This document shows positions 38,876 to 47,316 of a stretch of DNA of 49,705 bases, piece by piece. This DNA comes from Acidobacteriaceae bacterium. GTDB taxonomy: Bacteria > Acidobacteriota > Terriglobia > Terriglobales > Acidobacteriaceae. Both the position numbers and the translations under genes were made by a program. The DNA lies in contig PLXE01000082.1 of assembly GCA_003151335.1 (NCBI GenBank), positions 1-49,705 of the forward strand, given 5' to 3'. Each line of letters begins with the position of its first letter. Within the stretch, counting starts at the first letter, position 1. Below the pieces are notes generated by a model. The model was not told the origin of the DNA, did no database searches, and was given only the letters and a program-made list of their open reading frames with translations.

Positions 38876-39781
38876 GTGACCGGCCTGAAGAAGAAATCGA
38901 TTCGCCCGCCTAAGACCCACGACCAGCATGAACTGGTCATCGTCTCCGGGATGAGCGGGGCGGGGAAGGGCTCGGCCCTGAAAACGTTCGAGGACCTGGG
39001 CTACTACTGCGTGGACAACCTGCCGGTTGGACTCATCTCCAATTTTGCCGACCTGGTGCTGGATTCGCTGGAGATCCAGCGGGCCGCCCTGGTGGTGGAC
39101 ATCCGCGAAGGGGCGCGGCTCGACAAGTTGCCACAGGTCCTTGCCTCTTTGCGGCGAATGCTCAAGACCACGGTGGTCTTCCTGGAAGCCGACAGCGATG
39201 TGCTGGTTCGGCGTTATAGCGAGACGCGGCGTCCTCACCCGCTGGGACGCGACGCCTCCGTGAGGTCGTCGCTGACCGCAGAGCGCCGCCGCCTGCAACC
39301 GCTGCGCGCGCTGGCCGATGTGGTGGTGGATACTACCCAGTTCAATGTCCACGAATTGCGCGCCCAGCTTACCGAGCGTTTTCAGGGCGGCAACAGCGAC
39401 CGGAACCTGTTGATCTCCTGCGTCAGTTTTAGCTATCGCGAAGGGGTCCCGGAAGATGCGAACCTGGTGTTCGACGTGCGCTTTCTGCCCAACCCGCACT
39501 TCATTCCCAAGTTTCGTCCGCTGACCGGGCGACATCCGGAAGTGGCCAAATACATTCGCTCGTTTCCGCAAACCCGGGAGTTCATCCAGCGCATCTCCGA
39601 GTTGCTCATCTACCTGGTCCCGCATTACATCCGCGAAGGCAAGAGCTACCTGACCATCGCCTTCGGATGCACCGGCGGCAAGCATCGCTCGGTGATGATC
39701 GCCGAAGAGGTGAAGAAGCGCCTGTCCAAAGCCGGGTACAACATCAAAGTCGTGCACCGCGACTCGCCGGTGGCGAGTTAG
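38876..39781 (+). CDS. rapZ: RapZ/YvcJ nucleotide-binding adapter protein
   Basis: A 301-residue P-loop protein of the RapZ family, which in E. coli binds small RNAs to steer RNase E and control glucosamine-6-phosphate synthesis. Walker A is GMSGAGKGS (25-33), followed by GYYCVDNLPVGL. The C-terminal domain carries VSFSYREGVPEDANLVFDVR and GCTGGKHRSV. The start is the GTG at 38876. It overlaps, as GTGA, the stop of a 13-codon open frame that begins at 38838 (MRQTAMRNRVPGR), so translation of rapZ may be coupled to that short frame. Confidence 0.93.
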   Translation: MTGLKKKSIRPPKTHDQHELVIVSGMSGAGKGSALKTFEDLGYYCVDNLPVGLISNFADLVLDSLEIQRAALVVDIREGARLDKLPQVLASLRRMLKTTVVFLEADSDVLVRRYSETRRPHPLGRDASVRSSLTAERRRLQPLRALADVVVDTTQFNVHELRAQLTERFQGGNSDRNLLISCVSFSYREGVPEDANLVFDVRFLPNPHFIPKFRPLTGRHPEVAKYIRSFPQTREFIQRISELLIYLVPHYIREGKSYLTIAFGCTGGKHRSVMIAEEVKKRLSKAGYNIKVVHRDSPVAS

Positions 39782-39885
39782 AAACTTACACCTGGCCCAC
39801 TGACTCCTTGTCTTCGGCCCTCACCTCGCCACTTTTACTCCGTCGCTGTACCATGGCATTGCAATCCAATGCGACGGAGGATGTC

Positions 39886-41334
39886 ATGGTACCTGCACTT
39901 GCAGAGCTGGAACCCAAACCCATATGGAAGCACTTTGACGCTCTGGCAGCGATCCCGCGCGCCTCGACCAAGGAGGCTGCCGCGCGCGAATACGTGCTGG
40001 CGCAGGCCGCCCGCCTGGGCCTCGAGGTCGTTCAAGACAAGGCCGGCAACATTGTTGTCCGCAAGCCGGCGCATAAGGGGCGCGAGGGCGCGACGAAGGC
40101 CCTGTTGCAGGGCCACCTCGACATGGTCTGCGAGAAGAACGAGGGCACAGCCCACAACTTTGACACCGATCCCATCAAGGTGGTGCGCGATGGCGATTGG
40201 CTGAAGGCCGACGGAACCACTCTGGGCTCCGACAACGGCGTGGGGGTGGCGGCGGCCCTGGCGGTAATGGAGAGCACCGATATTGCTCACGGTCCGCTGG
40301 AGTTCGTGTTCACCATCGACGAAGAGACCGGTCTGACGGGCGCTGCGGAATTTCAGGCTGGAGTGCTCAAGTCCAGCTATTTTCTGAATCTCGACAACGA
40401 AGAGAAGGGTACGCTGTGCATCGGCTGCTCCGGCGGAGTGACCACGACGGCGCGCCGCAAGGTCACGCTCCGGCCAGCGGGAGCCGGTGCCGGTTGGCGC
40501 ATCAAGGTGCTTGGCCTGAAGGGCGGCCACTCCGGTGTGGATATCCATCAAGGCCGCGGCAACGCCTTGCGCATTTTAGGCGGCGTGCTGCAGAAGGCGC
40601 TGGAAAGTCTGCCGGTTGAAGTCTCCGACATCAAAGGCGGAAGCGCGCAAAATGCAATTCCTCGCGAGGCGTCGTCGATTGTGGTGCTGGACGCGGCGCG
40701 GGAAAAGGACCTGAAGTCGCTGGTTGCGACGGCCGAGGCGGAATACAAGGCCGACCTTGGCAGCTTCGATCCCGATTTGCAGATTACGGTCGAGAAGGCC
40801 GAGCGCCCAGAAAAGGTATTGGACTCTACTGACGCAAAGCAGACCGTCGCCTTGCTAGTCACCGTGCCTCACGGCGTTCTGGCGATGAGCCCCGACGTTC
40901 CCGGACTGGTGCAGAACTCAACCAATCTGGCGATCATCACCACCAAGGGCGACATGATCGAGATCGTCACCAGCCAGCGCAGCGCGATCGAGAGCAGCAA
41001 GCAGGCGTCCGCGCGCATGGTTGCCACCGCATGTCGCCTGGCGGGATTCGAAGTCGAGCATCGCGGCAGCTATCCCGGCTGGAAGCCCGAGCCCACCAGC
41101 GAAATCGTGCGCAAGCTCCAGGCGGTGCACCAAGAGCTCTTCGGCGAGCCCGCCAAGCTGATCGCCATGCACGCCGGCCTGGAGTGCGGCGTGATCGGCG
41201 AGAAGTATCCCGGCATGCAGATGGTGTCGTTCGGGCCAACCATCGTCGATCCCCACAGTCCCAACGAGCGCGTACAAATATCTTCGGTCGAGAGCTTCTG
41301 GAAGTACCTGAAGGCGGTGCTGGAGCGGATTTGA
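39886..41334 (+). CDS. pepD: Cytosolic aminoacyl-histidine dipeptidase
   Basis: A zinc dipeptidase of the M20 family (PepD). The ATG at 39886 has GGAGG five bases upstream and gives 482 residues, close to E. coli PepD; an ATG at 39853 is possible but lacks such a site. Metal and catalytic residues are visible: LLQGHLDMVCEKN (His, Asp), SDNGVGVA (Asp), DEETGLTGA (Glu pair). GHSGVDIHQGRGNALRIL and the C-terminal HAGLECGVI follow. It is the last clear housekeeping gene before the accessory DNA. Confidence 0.95.
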   Translation: MVPALAELEPKPIWKHFDALAAIPRASTKEAAAREYVLAQAARLGLEVVQDKAGNIVVRKPAHKGREGATKALLQGHLDMVCEKNEGTAHNFDTDPIKVVRDGDWLKADGTTLGSDNGVGVAAALAVMESTDIAHGPLEFVFTIDEETGLTGAAEFQAGVLKSSYFLNLDNEEKGTLCIGCSGGVTTTARRKVTLRPAGAGAGWRIKVLGLKGGHSGVDIHQGRGNALRILGGVLQKALESLPVEVSDIKGGSAQNAIPREASSIVVLDAAREKDLKSLVATAEAEYKADLGSFDPDLQITVEKAERPEKVLDSTDAKQTVALLVTVPHGVLAMSPDVPGLVQNSTNLAIITTKGDMIEIVTSQRSAIESSKQASARMVATACRLAGFEVEHRGSYPGWKPEPTSEIVRKLQAVHQELFGEPAKLIAMHAGLECGVIGEKYPGMQMVSFGPTIVDPHSPNERVQISSVESFWKYLKAVLERI

Positions 41335-43233: not shown

Positions 43234-43584
43234 CTACTTGGGTGTTTTCCGGCCGACAATGTTCAGTTCCACGACCTGGCCATCTGGATTTTTCACCAGC
43301 AATACCTTGCCGTTGGGAGCATTTAGTTTGGCAGGAAATTCTTTGCCGGCGGTCCAGTCGATAAACGTTGCCGCCGGTCCGCTGGTGCGACAAACGTAAA
43401 TCGTATTCTCCATGCGCATGGAGATCTTGTAGCCATCCGAACCTTCCATGTGCTGGGCGTTCGCGGCGACCCGTTCGAAAGCCACAACCTTTGCCATCTG
43501 ATAGCCTTCGTCCGCGTTTTGCGCATAGGCGAGCATCGCAGCCAGGGCGATGCAGCACGATAAAGCAAGCAAACATGTCTTCAT
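43234..43584 (-). CDS. Small exported protein of unknown function
   Basis: A 116-residue protein from the ATG at 43584, which has GGAGG eight bases upstream; a longer reading from 43638 is rejected. A signal peptide (KTCLLALSCCIALAAMLAYA) is followed by a compact domain with several strands (KISMRMENTIYVCRTSGPAA, KVLLVKNPDGQVVELNIVG). I do not recognise a family. It lies between the TPR remnant and the first tmRNA-type repeat. Confidence 0.6.
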   Translation of the reverse strand: MKTCLLALSCCIALAAMLAYAQNADEGYQMAKVVAFERVAANAQHMEGSDGYKISMRMENTIYVCRTSGPAATFIDWTAGKEFPAKLNAPNGKVLLVKNPDGQVVELNIVGRKTPK

Positions 43585-43985
43585 TGGCGTTCCTCCCTGA
43601 TGGTCGAAAAGAGAGTATAGACCGAGTCCCCGATGCACGCAGGAATAATGGGCACCCCGTTCTAGGCCGATTTTGGCTAGGGCGGGGCAATTAGCGGAGT
43701 GCGGGAGGAAGACAACTGTCCTGACATTGATCAGGCGGATGGTGAAGCTTGCAATATGGTGGAGGCGGCGGGAGTTGAACTTTCCCGTCGCATTGAAAAC
43801 AGGGAACTTATTGAAAAATTAGAGAATCGCGATACGCGGAACACTCACGATTGGGCATTTCATTGCACGCGTATTGCACACACAAAAAGACGCGACTCTC
43901 GCCGCGCCCCACACTTTGGAAGGAGTGCGCTTCCCGCGTCAAAGCGGGAAGCGGCCATCAGTCGGTTCCCCGCATTCAACTTTCG
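43585..43985. other. Gene-free stretch with att-type repeat and hairpin
   Basis: Holds the 21-bp tmRNA-end repeat at 43760-43780 and, at 43929-43952, a 9-bp stem GCTTCCCGC/GCGGGAAGC with loop GTCAAA just after the stop of the 43986-44765 gene. The stem lacks a T-run. No credible coding region is seen; open frames here are antisense or random. Confidence 0.5.
43760..43780. repeat. Direct repeat of the tmRNA 3' end, left copy (att-like)
   Basis: The 21 bases here equal 44991-45011 exactly (core GGAGGCGGCGGGAGTTGAAC). On the minus strand they are the T-loop and acceptor end of a tmRNA. Identity to the other copy stops in the T-loop, as expected for crossover by a tyrosine recombinase. Confidence 0.7.
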
Positions 43986-44765
43986 CTATTGCTTTTCGTC
44001 GACAAGCGTCGAGACTCTTCCGCTTTGCTTGTTGTCGGAGACAGTGGTCATTTTCTTTCCATCGGGCGAAACTGTGATCTTCTGGACACTGTAAAGCTTG
44101 CCATCGCGCTTATAGGTGACTTCGATGGCGCGGTCCCCCAACTGCTTCACCGACACAGTCTCACTCGCATAGATGCCCTTCACCGGGTACTCTTTGCCAT
44201 CGAGCTTGGCTTCCCAGCTCTCGCCGGTCGGTGTGGACATGCTCAGCCCATCGCCCCCGCCCTTCCATGTGCTGGTGAGCCCAGCAGTGTCTTCATTGAG
44301 GTTCTGGATATGCCAAGAACCGGAGGTCGCATTGGAGCCGGCCGGCCCCTTGGAAGCCCGCATGAACTTGACTTCTGTCTTGTAGGGCTGGCTGCCGTCG
44401 GCGGGATAGTTGGTAATCGAAAGGGTCATCGTCTTCCCATCCGGCAATACGGTCCTGATCTGATCGGACACCGTCTTGCCAGCTTTTTTTGTGGTGATGT
44501 GAATTGTATTCGCGTCCACAACCTGCACCGCGATCATGTCATATGTCTGGCCAGTGACAGGCTGATCCTGGCCGTCGGCCTTTACGTTGTTGACTTTGGG
44601 GACGCAACTTTCGCAGTTGTACATCCCATTGTTCACCGAATACACGTAGGGCTTCTGCGAAAGCTTAGACTCCGCCATGTTGGTCTTCCAGGTACCGTCG
44701 AACGGACTTTGTGCGAACAACATCACGGGGAGAAACCACAAAACAACGCAGAGCATTTTATTCAT
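43986..44765 (-). CDS. Exported protein of unknown function
   Basis: A 259-residue protein with a signal peptide (MLCVVLWFLPVMLFAQ) followed directly by SPFDGTWKTNMAESKLS, the start common to many acidobacterial secreted beta-rich proteins. Repeated strands such as GKTMTLSITNYPADG and YSVQKITVSPDGKKMTTVS suggest a lipocalin-like or beta-sandwich fold. A C-x2-C pair (NCESCVPKV) sits near residue 50. No enzyme motif is seen. It is the only gene between the two tmRNA-end repeats. Confidence 0.65.
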   Translation of the reverse strand: MNKMLCVVLWFLPVMLFAQSPFDGTWKTNMAESKLSQKPYVYSVNNGMYNCESCVPKVNNVKADGQDQPVTGQTYDMIAVQVVDANTIHITTKKAGKTVSDQIRTVLPDGKTMTLSITNYPADGSQPYKTEVKFMRASKGPAGSNATSGSWHIQNLNEDTAGLTSTWKGGGDGLSMSTPTGESWEAKLDGKEYPVKGIYASETVSVKQLGDRAIEVTYKRDGKLYSVQKITVSPDGKKMTTVSDNKQSGRVSTLVDEKQ

Positions 44766-44935
44766 GCTTATCTCCTGATTCTGATGATTCTGATTAGTTG
44801 GTTAGGAATCTGAGGTTATGCTCGCGCTCCAGGTTTGTCAAAACCAGGGTAGACGAAACTAACCCAGGGCACGGCACTTTGGCGCAGCCGGGCAAGTGCG
44901 CGCTGCACTGATTGATCTTTAGTGTGAATTGAAAT

Positions 44936-44955
44936 CAGCGGGCTGGGGCCCGCTG
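44936..44955 (-). terminator. Terminator-like hairpin downstream of the tmRNA segment
   Basis: Stem CAGCGGGC/GCCCGCTG with a four-base loop, 36 bases after the tmRNA 3' end on the minus strand, followed by GATTTC. The T-run is short. The 225-base gap 44766-44990 shows nothing else except two GATTCTGAT repeats at its start. Confidence 0.4.
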
Positions 44956-44990
44956 TATGCTAGTAAACTATTGAAAATAAACACGTTGCT

Positions 44991-45011
44991 TGGAGGCGGC
45001 GGGAGTTGAAC
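44991..45011. repeat. Direct repeat of the tmRNA 3' end, right copy (att-like)
   Basis: Exact partner of 43760-43780, 1231 bases apart, at the 3' terminus of the tmRNA segment. Confidence 0.7.
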
Positions 45012-45135
45012 CCGCGTCCGAAAATGTTGTCAGCAAAATACCCACGTTAGTCTCGTTCCGACGTCCGTTGCCACGCCACTCGCCGGCGGCGCTCAGCCTC
45101 GCGACGTATCGCGGGGAGGAGAAGACAACGGATCA
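44991..45135 (-). ncRNA. ssrA: tmRNA (ssrA) 3' segment, apparently truncated
   Basis: Read on the minus strand, the end TTTTCGGACGCGGGTTCAAC then TCCCGCCGCCTCCA is the tRNA-like 3' end of tmRNA: T-stem GCGGG/CCCGC, acceptor strand CGCCTCC, discriminator A. The preceding GAGTGGCGTGGCAACGGAC and GAGACTAACG resemble the last pseudoknot region. The partner strand GGAGGCG, the GGTTTCGAC or GGATTCGAC box and a tag reading frame were not found within 450 bases on either side. It is either a fragment carried by an integrated element or an unrecognised variant. The true ssrA would lie outside the window. Confidence 0.6.
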
Positions 45136-45140
45136 TCGAT

Positions 45141-45205
45141 TCACTGCAAAATAATTCAAACTCACTGCAACGCAATTCAAACATTACTGCAAGTCAATTC
45201 CAACA
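45141..45205. repeat. Tandem 21-22 bp repeats next to the tmRNA segment
   Basis: Three imperfect units: TCACTGCAAAATAATTCAAAC (first 20 bases are the unit core), TCACTGCAACGCAATTCAAA and TTACTGCAAGTCAATTCCAA. A fourth decayed unit begins at about 45206. Their position beside an att-like site fits arm-type recombinase sites. Confidence 0.6.
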
Positions 45206-45248
45206 ATTACAGTAGCTGTGCATTCTGGAATTATTTTGCATTGGCGGC

Positions 45249-45278
45249 GTATCGCGGTGTATCGCGGTGTATCGCGGT
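45249..45278. repeat. Three tandem copies of GTATCGCGGT
   Basis: Perfect 10-bp units at 45249, 45259 and 45269. The core GTATCGCGG also occurs at 45106-45114 inside the tmRNA segment. The region to 45414 holds no gene. Confidence 0.7.
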
Positions 45279-45414
45279 TTTTGGCGGGTCTTGGCGCGCC
45301 CAAATTCGCCGAAATTCGGACATACTTGTGTGGAATTGATTTTCAGTGCGGCGAGATTCGACCTCTGTAAGTGCTTGATTCTTCGTGAAGGGTCCAGGCT
45401 TTTCGTGCGCTTGT

Positions 45415-45540
45415 CGCGAACCTACGGCTAAGACGCAGATCAGAATCCGGTAACTTATTCAACCCAAACGGCTTACGTGATGAACCGACGCATGAGCTTC
45501 ATGCAATCCCGCGAACATCCCACGAACCTTGGCAGCCTCT
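45415..45540. repeat. Conserved flank of the XRE module, copy 1
   Basis: Aligns with 47580-47706 through blocks CGCGAACCTAC, TAACTTATTCAA, CTTACGTG and CCCACGAAC in the same order and similar spacing. In copy 2 it lies beyond the stop of the XRE gene, so the conservation is not explained by that protein. Confidence 0.6.
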
Positions 45541-45761
45541 AGTTTCTTGGGGTTTCTTGCTGAGCATTTTTCGAGCAAAGAGATCCAGCGCTCTATCCTC
45601 TTCATGTCAACGCCAGCCCGACGCCAGAACCAAAGAGACTCATTTTCTTTGGCTAAGCTTCCCATCTGCAAGAAGCGTTCAGCCGATGGTGCACTGTCCG
45701 TTGTGTTACCGCCGAAAGGGCAGCCACTCTTGGCCGCTCGCAAGCTGCTTTCGGAGAACAA
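45459..45761 (-). pseudogene. Decayed XRE-family regulator, copy of the gene at 47707
   Basis: The frame keeps the segment PSAERFLQMGSLAKENESLW, then FWRRAGVDMKRIERW, which aligns with PSVENYIRMANLADETSCLW and FLERAGVETGRFERL of the intact gene. The helix-turn-helix is gone; a trace LRKQLASGQEW is readable in another frame near 45750. The reading continues past the point where the intact gene stops. It borders directly on a truncated Crp gene. Confidence 0.65.
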
Positions 45762-45763
45762 CC

Positions 45764-46063
45764 TTACTGCGTAAAAGCCAGGGCCTTCAGCCCCGCCTTA
45801 TTCCGTATGCGTAGGGTTGAGCCCTTCCTCTCCACGATCTGCTGCTTCGTCAGGTCGGCGAACATACGGGTTACGGTTTCCCGGGACGTGCCAATCATCT
45901 GCGCCATCTCGTCATGGGTTAACGCAAGCTTTATGTGCGGCTGGGCCTTGGCGGTTTCCCCGCCTTGGCCGGAGAACTGGACAAAGCGATTCACGTCGCG
46001 TGCAGTTCGGGTGCGACCTCGGCCAAGGCTTGACTGAGGAGCAGAATGTTGGGTTGGACGCAC
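45764..46063 (-). pseudogene. Crp/Fnr-family regulator, C-terminal DNA-binding part only
   Basis: About 75 residues of a Crp winged helix are intact (FSGQGGETAKAQPHIKLALT, then HDEMAQMIGTSRETVTRMFA and ERKGSTLRIRNKAGL). The cyclic-nucleotide-type effector domain is missing; the first 30 residues are unrelated Arg-rich sequence. Compared with the complete regulator at 46513 it is a different paralogue. Without a sensor domain it is probably non-functional. Confidence 0.7.
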
Positions 46064-46079
46064 AGTATTTCAGCTACGA

Positions 46080-46460
46080 TTACTTTGCCAACAGGTAAGC
46101 AATAGTATCGAGCAGGATATTCGGTGGCTCACCTTTTGCCAAAAAGCCATCCGCAAACTCCAGGCCAGCAGGCTTCTCTGCGGCAGCCGAGATGATCAGA
46201 ATGGGAACCTCCGGTTTCAGTCCCTTCATTTCTCTGGCGATCTCTGTTCCTGTCTTGGCGCTTAGAAAATGGTCGGCGATTACCAAGTCGATAGGACTCT
46301 GCTTAAAAAGCTCCAGGCCATCTTCAGCTGAGTGGGCCGTTAGCACATCGTAGCCTTCGCTGACGAGCAGGAGCTTCCTTACCCGCAACGCGATGTCAGC
46401 ATCGTCTATACACAATATCAGCGGGGTCCTTGCAGCGGTAGATAATGAAGCCAAGTTCAT
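46080..46460 (-). CDS. Single-domain response regulator
   Basis: A 126-residue receiver domain without an output domain. The acidic pair D19-D20, the phosphoacceptor D63 (LVIADHFLSAKTG), the conserved Ser in LIISA and the Lys in FLAKGE are all present, so phosphorylation is plausible. AGGAACGG precedes the ATG. It is encoded 52 bases after the FNR-like regulator on the same strand, so the two may be co-transcribed. No histidine kinase is in the window. Confidence 0.88.
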   Translation of the reverse strand: MNLASLSTAARTPLILCIDDADIALRVRKLLLVSEGYDVLTAHSAEDGLELFKQSPIDLVIADHFLSAKTGTEIAREMKGLKPEVPILIISAAAEKPAGLEFADGFLAKGEPPNILLDTIAYLLAK

Positions 46461-46512
46461 GGCCGTTCCTAATCTGCCCGAGAGAACATCCGGGCGTGCG
46501 CGTTTATCGGTT

Positions 46513-47226
46513 CTATGCGCCAGCCAGCTTTTGAATGGCAGGCATATTCTGGATCAGCAGGGTGGAACCATGAATTTCCGCAATGCGCTGCTTGCGAAAA
46601 CTAGCGAGAGTACGGGTAACTGTCTCACGCGACATCCCGATGATTTGCCCGATCTCATCATGTGTTAACGCTACCTTGATCCCGTGAGCCGTGGCCACGC
46701 CGGAATCGTCATGCGACCATTCCAGCATCAGGCGGGCAATTCGCTGGGGTGCTGAGTTCATTGTGAACGAGCGAAGCTGCTGGTACGCCTGTTGGCACTC
46801 GCGGCTCAATTGTATTGCGACGTGCATGGAGGCAGCGCCGTGTTCCTTCAAGAACTTAAGAAAGTCGTCCCGTTTAACAAAGTTAAGTTGGCACGGCTGG
46901 CCAGTTTCCGCAGTGGTCTCGTGAGGGATTCCAGAGATGGCTGCGTCCAACCCTAACACCTCTCCGGGTTGAGCGACTTTTAATATCAGGGTCTGGCCGT
47001 CTTTCGAAGTGGCTGATAATTTCACGCGGCCTTTACAGAGAATGTAAATACCACGGCATACTTGCCCTTCAACGAACAAAGTTGCGCCAGCCGGATGTGC
47101 GATTGTGAACTTTATGGGCTGGAACGCTTCCATTACTGATTTCGGCAAATGGCAGAAGAAGCTCCCGGAACACAGTTTGCAGGCGAGACAGTTTTCGACC
47201 AGCTCCATCCCGTATGGTGAATGCAT
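46513..47226 (-). CDS. Crp/Fnr-family regulator with N-terminal cysteine cluster
   Basis: A transcription regulator of about 238 residues. After SPYGMELVEN comes a four-cysteine cluster (C13, C16, C19, C25: CLACKLCSGSFFC), then a cNMP-type beta-barrel (AGATLFVEGQVCRGIYILCK) and a winged helix (LTHDEIGQIIGMSRETVTRT). The cluster resembles FNR-type iron-sulfur ligands, so oxygen or NO sensing is possible. In-frame ATGs at 47316, 47250, 47235, 47232 and 47208 make the start uncertain; 47226 was chosen because SPYG-E begins related proteins. The gene is upstream of the response regulator. Confidence 0.85.
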   Translation of the reverse strand: MHSPYGMELVENCLACKLCSGSFFCHLPKSVMEAFQPIKFTIAHPAGATLFVEGQVCRGIYILCKGRVKLSATSKDGQTLILKVAQPGEVLGLDAAISGIPHETTAETGQPCQLNFVKRDDFLKFLKEHGAASMHVAIQLSRECQQAYQQLRSFTMNSAPQRIARLMLEWSHDDSGVATAHGIKVALTHDEIGQIIGMSRETVTRTLASFRKQRIAEIHGSTLLIQNMPAIQKLAGA

Positions 47227-47316
47227 CGCCATCATCTCGTGGGAACCCATATCGCGCAGAGTCGGTGGCAGTGGATGAAAGGAGATCAACCCTTGCTCTG
47301 AGAGGCCGACTGCCAC

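Follow-up and report, generated by a model that had tools for sequence, protein, structure and literature searches.

In Dehalococcoides, ssrA islands lie in tandem downstream of ssrA and are bounded by a 20-bp ssrA repeat; 31 such islands are reported, and for the 15 among them without an integration module the authors suggest cis-mobilizable elements (McMurdie 2011, PMC3146451). The elements known as CIMEs have lost their integration and transfer genes, keep attL and attR at the target gene, and arise by decay and accretion (PMC5704250). The tDNA islands collected with Islander pair an intact target gene with its 3' fragment, tmRNA being the most enriched target, and the filters of that program require an integrase and a length of 2 kb or more (PMC4383910). 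Acidobacteria were not found in the best-matching literature on the subject, which we do not take as absence from print.

We examined a duplicated tmRNA end in an Acidobacteriaceae genome of 121 contigs (4.65 Mb; completeness 100, contamination 0.66). The window, that is, the whole stretch of 49,705 nucleotides that was analysed, lies on contig C34; other contigs of the same genome are given as C numbers, loci as L numbers, and related genomes as G numbers. Very probably, the duplicated end at 43760-45011 is the trace of site-specific integration that targets the ssrA 3' end; it reads as an integrase-less unit of 1,231 bp (core to core), in which a pair of ssrA attachment sites encloses a single gene for a predicted secreted protein. 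The element is compact, decayed, and of a kind already known. The initial annotation had offered two interpretations, a remnant of nested integrations or a permuted or divergent tmRNA; the former is supported, as each copy is flanked by sequence that belongs to an ssrA-specific system of integration seen in other genomes and an intact ssrA lies elsewhere, while the latter is not supported, since neither ARAGORN nor an Rfam library of 4227 families yields a second half.

The duplicated core and its flanking arms

The exact 21-bp direct repeat TGGAGGCGGCGGGAGTTGAAC occupies 43760-43780 and 44991-45011 and corresponds, on the minus strand, to tmRNA from the T loop to the discriminator base. It had been noticed from the letters alone and proves to be the sole 21-mer present twice on one strand of the window, and none of 40 first-order Markov simulations contained any such repeat. 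The left copy is followed by CCA at 43757-43759 (CCTCCACCA), and the right copy ends without an encoded CCA (CCTCCAAGC). That one secreted-protein gene is enclosed by the repeat also holds: the cores flank a single open reading frame of 259 amino acids (43986-44765, minus strand), with a start that resembles a signal peptide by eye only. This predicted cargo gene belongs to no confident Pfam family (best E 0.0044, below cut-off), a Pfam scan of it returned no recombinase domain, and it has close paralogues in its own genome on C51 (85%), C66 (83%), and C14 (76%).

On the element side of the left core lies a conserved flank, the P arm (43781-43825, minus strand). Together with the core it has a match in 16 of 300 family genomes, the genome itself and the congener G300 included, 14 of them outside the genus. 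G300 has a segment of 9.1 kb that begins at ssrA and is closed by this arm; with the far end of that segment, the window is 81% identical over 153 bp, core included. A matrix for the arm was built from 12 copies outside the genus, chosen by eye from 26 non-ssrA core copies, the exclusions being the genome's own copy, two from congeners, one that contains N, a duplicate, and nine in which no arm was visible; it places the site in the window first of 99,322 positions, with 20.2 against 10.7 for the next nonoverlapping site, a rank that is partly circular because the window itself had served as the query for finding the copies.

The opposite arm, P', is marked by the 18-mer TTTATTTTCAATAGTTTA (44964-44981, minus strand), which occurs once in the window and agrees at 18 of 18 positions with a stretch of G129 that lies between core and integrase. 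The contig with the intact ssrA, C105, matches it at 15 of 18 positions at that gene, and other stretches reach at most 13 of 18 among 20,000 sampled; the 18-mer was picked by eye from G129 and had no part in finding the genomes with the P arm. At least 8 of 298 genomes (own genome excluded) match the window through 28 bases after ssrA, that is, to query base 173 or beyond. From the end of ssrA to 44887-44927, moreover, the window aligns at 74 to 77% with G302, G271, and G124, and a hairpin at 44936-44955 (minus strand) resembles, by eye, one downstream of ssrA in sister genomes. The P' arm may therefore be partly native to the genus, since 44887-44990 looks like ordinary post-ssrA sequence of the sisters.

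From this arm evidence, the left copy is attR-like (element arm, core, CCA) and the right copy is attL-like (ssrA-like side, core, element arm). With the P arm matrix, the stretch 5' of the right core scores -21, and it consists of ssrA-like sequence; at a simple tandem junction one would expect a P arm in its place, which counts against the integration reading, and an extra step is needed to account for the tmRNA piece.

The intact ssrA and its chromosomal place

The initial annotation advised looking for a complete ssrA outside the window, and an intact one-piece gene lies at C105:1215-1578 (169 bits with RF00023; tag ACKNTIANQNLAYAA). The outcomes named there as contrary to its claim, a full tmRNA model scoring across 44991-45400 or a genome with no other ssrA, did not occur. 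RF00023 has 13 matches in the genome, and the gene on C105 alone passes the cut-off. Eight of the 13 were examined, namely the intact gene, the piece in the window, and six weak loci; among the latter, ARAGORN places tRNAs in five (L002, L003, L005, L006, and L008) and none in L007 (C103:90019).

The intact gene ends in CCTCCATGC, so that CCA is no longer encoded, while the six congeners seen read CCTCCACCA; CCA is not encoded at the end of ssrA in G125, from another genus, either. An element-like flank stands in the place of CCA after the intact gene (positions 1187-1215 of L024, C105). Over its last 120 nt, this gene is identical to the ssrA of G124 and of G298, and its end therefore looks native.

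In the sister genome G271, the pepD-like peptidase gene of the window (39667-41334, plus strand; gene name by eye) lies about 130 bp from ssrA, and genes of C105 follow that ssrA; in G302, pepD and ssrA are also linked, with about 10.8 kb between them. In the genome studied here, pepD and the 3' fragment are on C34 and the intact ssrA is on C105, both contigs break off between the two genes, and the assembly does not join them. Given the short distance in G271, mobile DNA probably separates pepD and ssrA here, and we infer at least 9.6 kb of inserted DNA between them (8.4 kb on C34 and 1.2 kb on C105). The link between C34 and C105 is drawn from G271 and G302 only. Among 20 loci checked of 80, one has an ssrA core within 10 kb of pepD, so that the adjacency is not general and the claim that it is ancestral rests on two genomes.

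With an assembly in 121 pieces, one might ask whether the right part of C34, or C105, is foreign to the genome. Such an artefact of assembly or binning is highly improbable, as in both G271 and G302 genes of the two contigs surround a single ssrA locus, the repeat at 45137-45529 is genus specific, and completeness and contamination are as given above.

The decayed tmRNA piece and the adjoining repeat

The right core is the 3' end of a decayed ssrA piece of 146 nt (44991-45136, minus strand). It retains a tRNA-like 3' end, with T arm and acceptor 3' strand, and part of the last pseudoknot region. The earlier impression that the right copy runs for about 145 nt in tmRNA sequence and then changes to repeats is borne out by three observations: RF00023 matches 44990-45066 with 26 bits (E 5e-8), below its gathering score of 47; aligned with the ssrA of G090, the 109 nt that lie upstream of the identical end score 59, above the maximum of 52 in 300 shuffles; and the change falls at 45137. 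Against the intact ssrA of its own genome, the same 109 nt score 49, within the shuffle range and above its 95% point of 42. These shuffles (n=300) were mononucleotide and preserve base composition only. With the intact gene, the piece shares 76% identity (111 query bases).

Neither ARAGORN nor Rfam, applied at gathering score to the whole window, with Rfam also at E up to 1 over 43400-46000, found a 5' half, an acceptor partner strand, or a tag frame, in agreement with the initial reading that partner strand and tag frame are missing. A functional tmRNA has a 5' half with the acceptor strand and a tag frame, and for 44991-45136 neither was found. The T arm and acceptor 3' strand kept in the piece are what one would also expect of a permuted or two-piece tmRNA with an overlooked other half. 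Since a complete one-piece gene is present in the genome and the partner half is absent by both programs, such a tmRNA is very unlikely, to the point that we give it practically no credence; the stretch after GACTAA, moreover, departs from the sister ssrA genes and contains gaps.

As to the origin of the piece, its alignment scores with the ssrA genes of G090 (59), G271 (55), G300 (53), and G125 (52) all exceed that with the gene of its own genome (49), which makes a simple recent duplication of the latter unlikely. A search of eight congeners with the piece as query gave one match in seven of them and no second copy at E 0.001; six of the matches are at the ssrA gene of the respective genome, and that in G301 is a core with both arms. 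Perhaps the piece was carried in with mobile DNA, or it is old.

At 45137, the tmRNA-like sequence gives way to a dispersed repeat of 393 bp (45137-45529) with short tandem motifs, which ends exactly at the piece. A 764-base query has 15 matches in the genome besides itself, of which 6 cover 45137-45529 fully or minus a base, the others being partial or outside it. The repeat is present in 8 of 300 genomes, all of the own genus. Ten further copies in the genome were inspected by eye; in 5 of them the repeat stops at this very base, next to a tRNA-Pro-like 3' piece that has a T arm, and four of these five pieces are also recovered by BLAST with E below 0.001. Because of this shared end, the join of repeat and tmRNA piece may itself be a scar left by the integration of another family of elements.

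The same shared end bears on a further explanation, in which an island displaced the native 3' end of ssrA, now the 146-nt piece, the island's own copy completes the gene on C105, and the 393-bp repeat is the end of that island. The sequence downstream of the piece, which is like that after ssrA in the sisters, also speaks for it. However, the last 120 nt of the gene on C105 look native by their identity to G124 and G298, the piece is closer by score to the ssrA of G090 and G271 than to that of its own genome, and the crossover would have to fall in the last pseudoknot region rather than in the T loop. We consider this course of events rather unlikely, though it deserves weight, and continue to read the piece as one side of an attachment site.

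Other tRNA-related ends were seen in the genome and its relatives. In G124 (L170), the repeat ends just before a tRNA-SeC gene, and ARAGORN calls the piece on C82 (L173) tRNA-Pro. At L175, L176, L182, L184, and L185 (on C15, C66, and C61) there are tRNA-Pro- and tRNA-Met-like 3' halves that ARAGORN does not call as tRNAs. The pieces at C66:60515 and C61:28420 directly follow PF00589 matches, and tRNA-targeted islands may therefore be frequent in this genome. Within the window, a short tyrosine recombinase open reading frame at 800-1538 (239 amino acids, PF00589) overlaps the 3' part of a tRNA-Met on the opposite strand and is perhaps another island end. Beyond the 393-bp repeat, 45764-47316 holds a Crp-type helix-turn-helix (HTH) piece without a sensor domain, a response-regulator gene, and then a full Crp-like regulator; sequences like the HTH piece occur on C20, C14, and C103.

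Integrases, small units, and known elements

Integrases with PF00589 start 92 to 138 bp after ssrA or a core, in the same orientation, at three places in G129 and G156 (112 bp after a core in G129, 138 bp after ssrA in G129, and 92 bp after ssrA in G156). Two of them are 55 and 57% identical to the first. All three share an invariant H-x-x-R, H, and Y towards the C terminus, which we take to be the catalytic residues. The genome studied here has 22 places with PF00589, and none is near this type, the best being 23% identical over 302 amino acids with two of the three integrases as queries; the 1,231-bp unit is therefore probably immobile now. A search with all three integrases against the loci retrieved, at E 1e-8, likewise gave no fitting integrase in this genome and no integrase remnant in the window. 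PF00589 has no match on C105 and none on C34 except at 827-1315, hence none to the right of the cores.

Small stretches from core to core recur in relatives, with 3.1 kb in G042, 2.1 and 1.8 kb in G338, 3.3 kb in G125, 3.7 kb in G366, and 0.9 kb in G170. In G042, G125, G338, and G366, one of the two cores has no visible P arm, and PF00589 has no match inside the stretches of these four genomes. The unit of G042 has genes that are katG- and fur-like by eye, and G338 has two units in a row. In G042 (L150, 6273-9565), two more ssrA cores follow ssrA, one of them 144 bp from the core of ssrA, and the sequences after ssrA and after the far core are nearly alike.

Remnants of an integrase N terminus lie after the core in the stretches of G366 and G170, and some of the small units therefore appear to be deletion products. 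By the same token, the 1.2-kb segment of the window might be what deletion has left of one large ssrA island and never have been a self-standing mobile unit. No integrase remnant was found in the window with the three queries, which argues against this; that both arms sit at the expected ends and that small stretches recur elsewhere may seem to argue against it as well, yet these two facts fit either reading. We regard the chances of such a deletion as about even, and integration at the 3' end of ssrA as the very probable source of the duplicated end.

Our results lead us to propose that a tyrosine integrase specific for ssrA, of the type found 92 to 138 bp after the core in relatives, once recombined both sites. 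Such an integrase would join element and ssrA at the core, and the tmRNA gene would stay whole at that site. The unit would then have lost its integrase or would never have had one, and what persists may be a remnant comparable to a cis-mobilizable element. Its left attachment site would be the 146-nt tmRNA piece, which either arrived with mobile DNA or dates from an earlier event, and which would since have decayed and been cut by the end of the 393-bp repeat. Rescue of stalled ribosomes would fall to the intact ssrA on C105.

As a speculation to which we give little credence, a cassette-like array may be anchored at the ssrA 3' end in this family of Acidobacteriota. Its small units, each with one or two genes flanked by ssrA cores and several of them with both P and P' arms, would be mobilized by an ssrA-specific tyrosine integrase acting in trans, somewhat like integron cassettes; the units here and in G042, G338, and G125 would be its members. 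On the preferred reading of the locus, an apparently broken tmRNA can be explained as the scar of an attachment site, and ssrA would be a repeated landing site in a little-studied family, the Acidobacteriaceae.

Compared with the ssrA islands of Dehalococcoides (PMC3146451), the unit is likewise bounded by an ssrA repeat and, like 15 of the 31, is missing an integration module. It differs in its size of 1.2 kb and in its place beside a long decayed ssrA piece; moreover, the Dehalococcoides islands use the serine recombinase DsiB at attL (PMC3146451), whereas the three integrases examined in relatives here are tyrosine integrases with PF00589 at that position. The islands in Islander resemble the locus in having an intact target and a 3' fragment; by definition the two share orientation and replicon there, a relation that here would follow from the linkage in G271 and G302. 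They differ from the locus in that here the integrase is missing, the length is less than 2 kb, and the target is on another contig; by its published filters, which need an integrase and at least 2 kb (PMC4383910), Islander would reject the unit, and small ssrA arrays may be undercounted since units below 2 kb or without an integrase fail these filters. Unlike the CIMEs as outlined in PMC5704250, the unit lies in a genome with no fitting integrase among its 22 PF00589 places. Like them, and as judged from sequence alone, it has kept attL- and attR-like sites, with cores and P' and P arms at the expected ends and with the ssrA side of attL decayed, and between these sites it is free of integration and transfer genes, as seen from the scan of the 259-amino-acid reading frame and the positions of PF00589.
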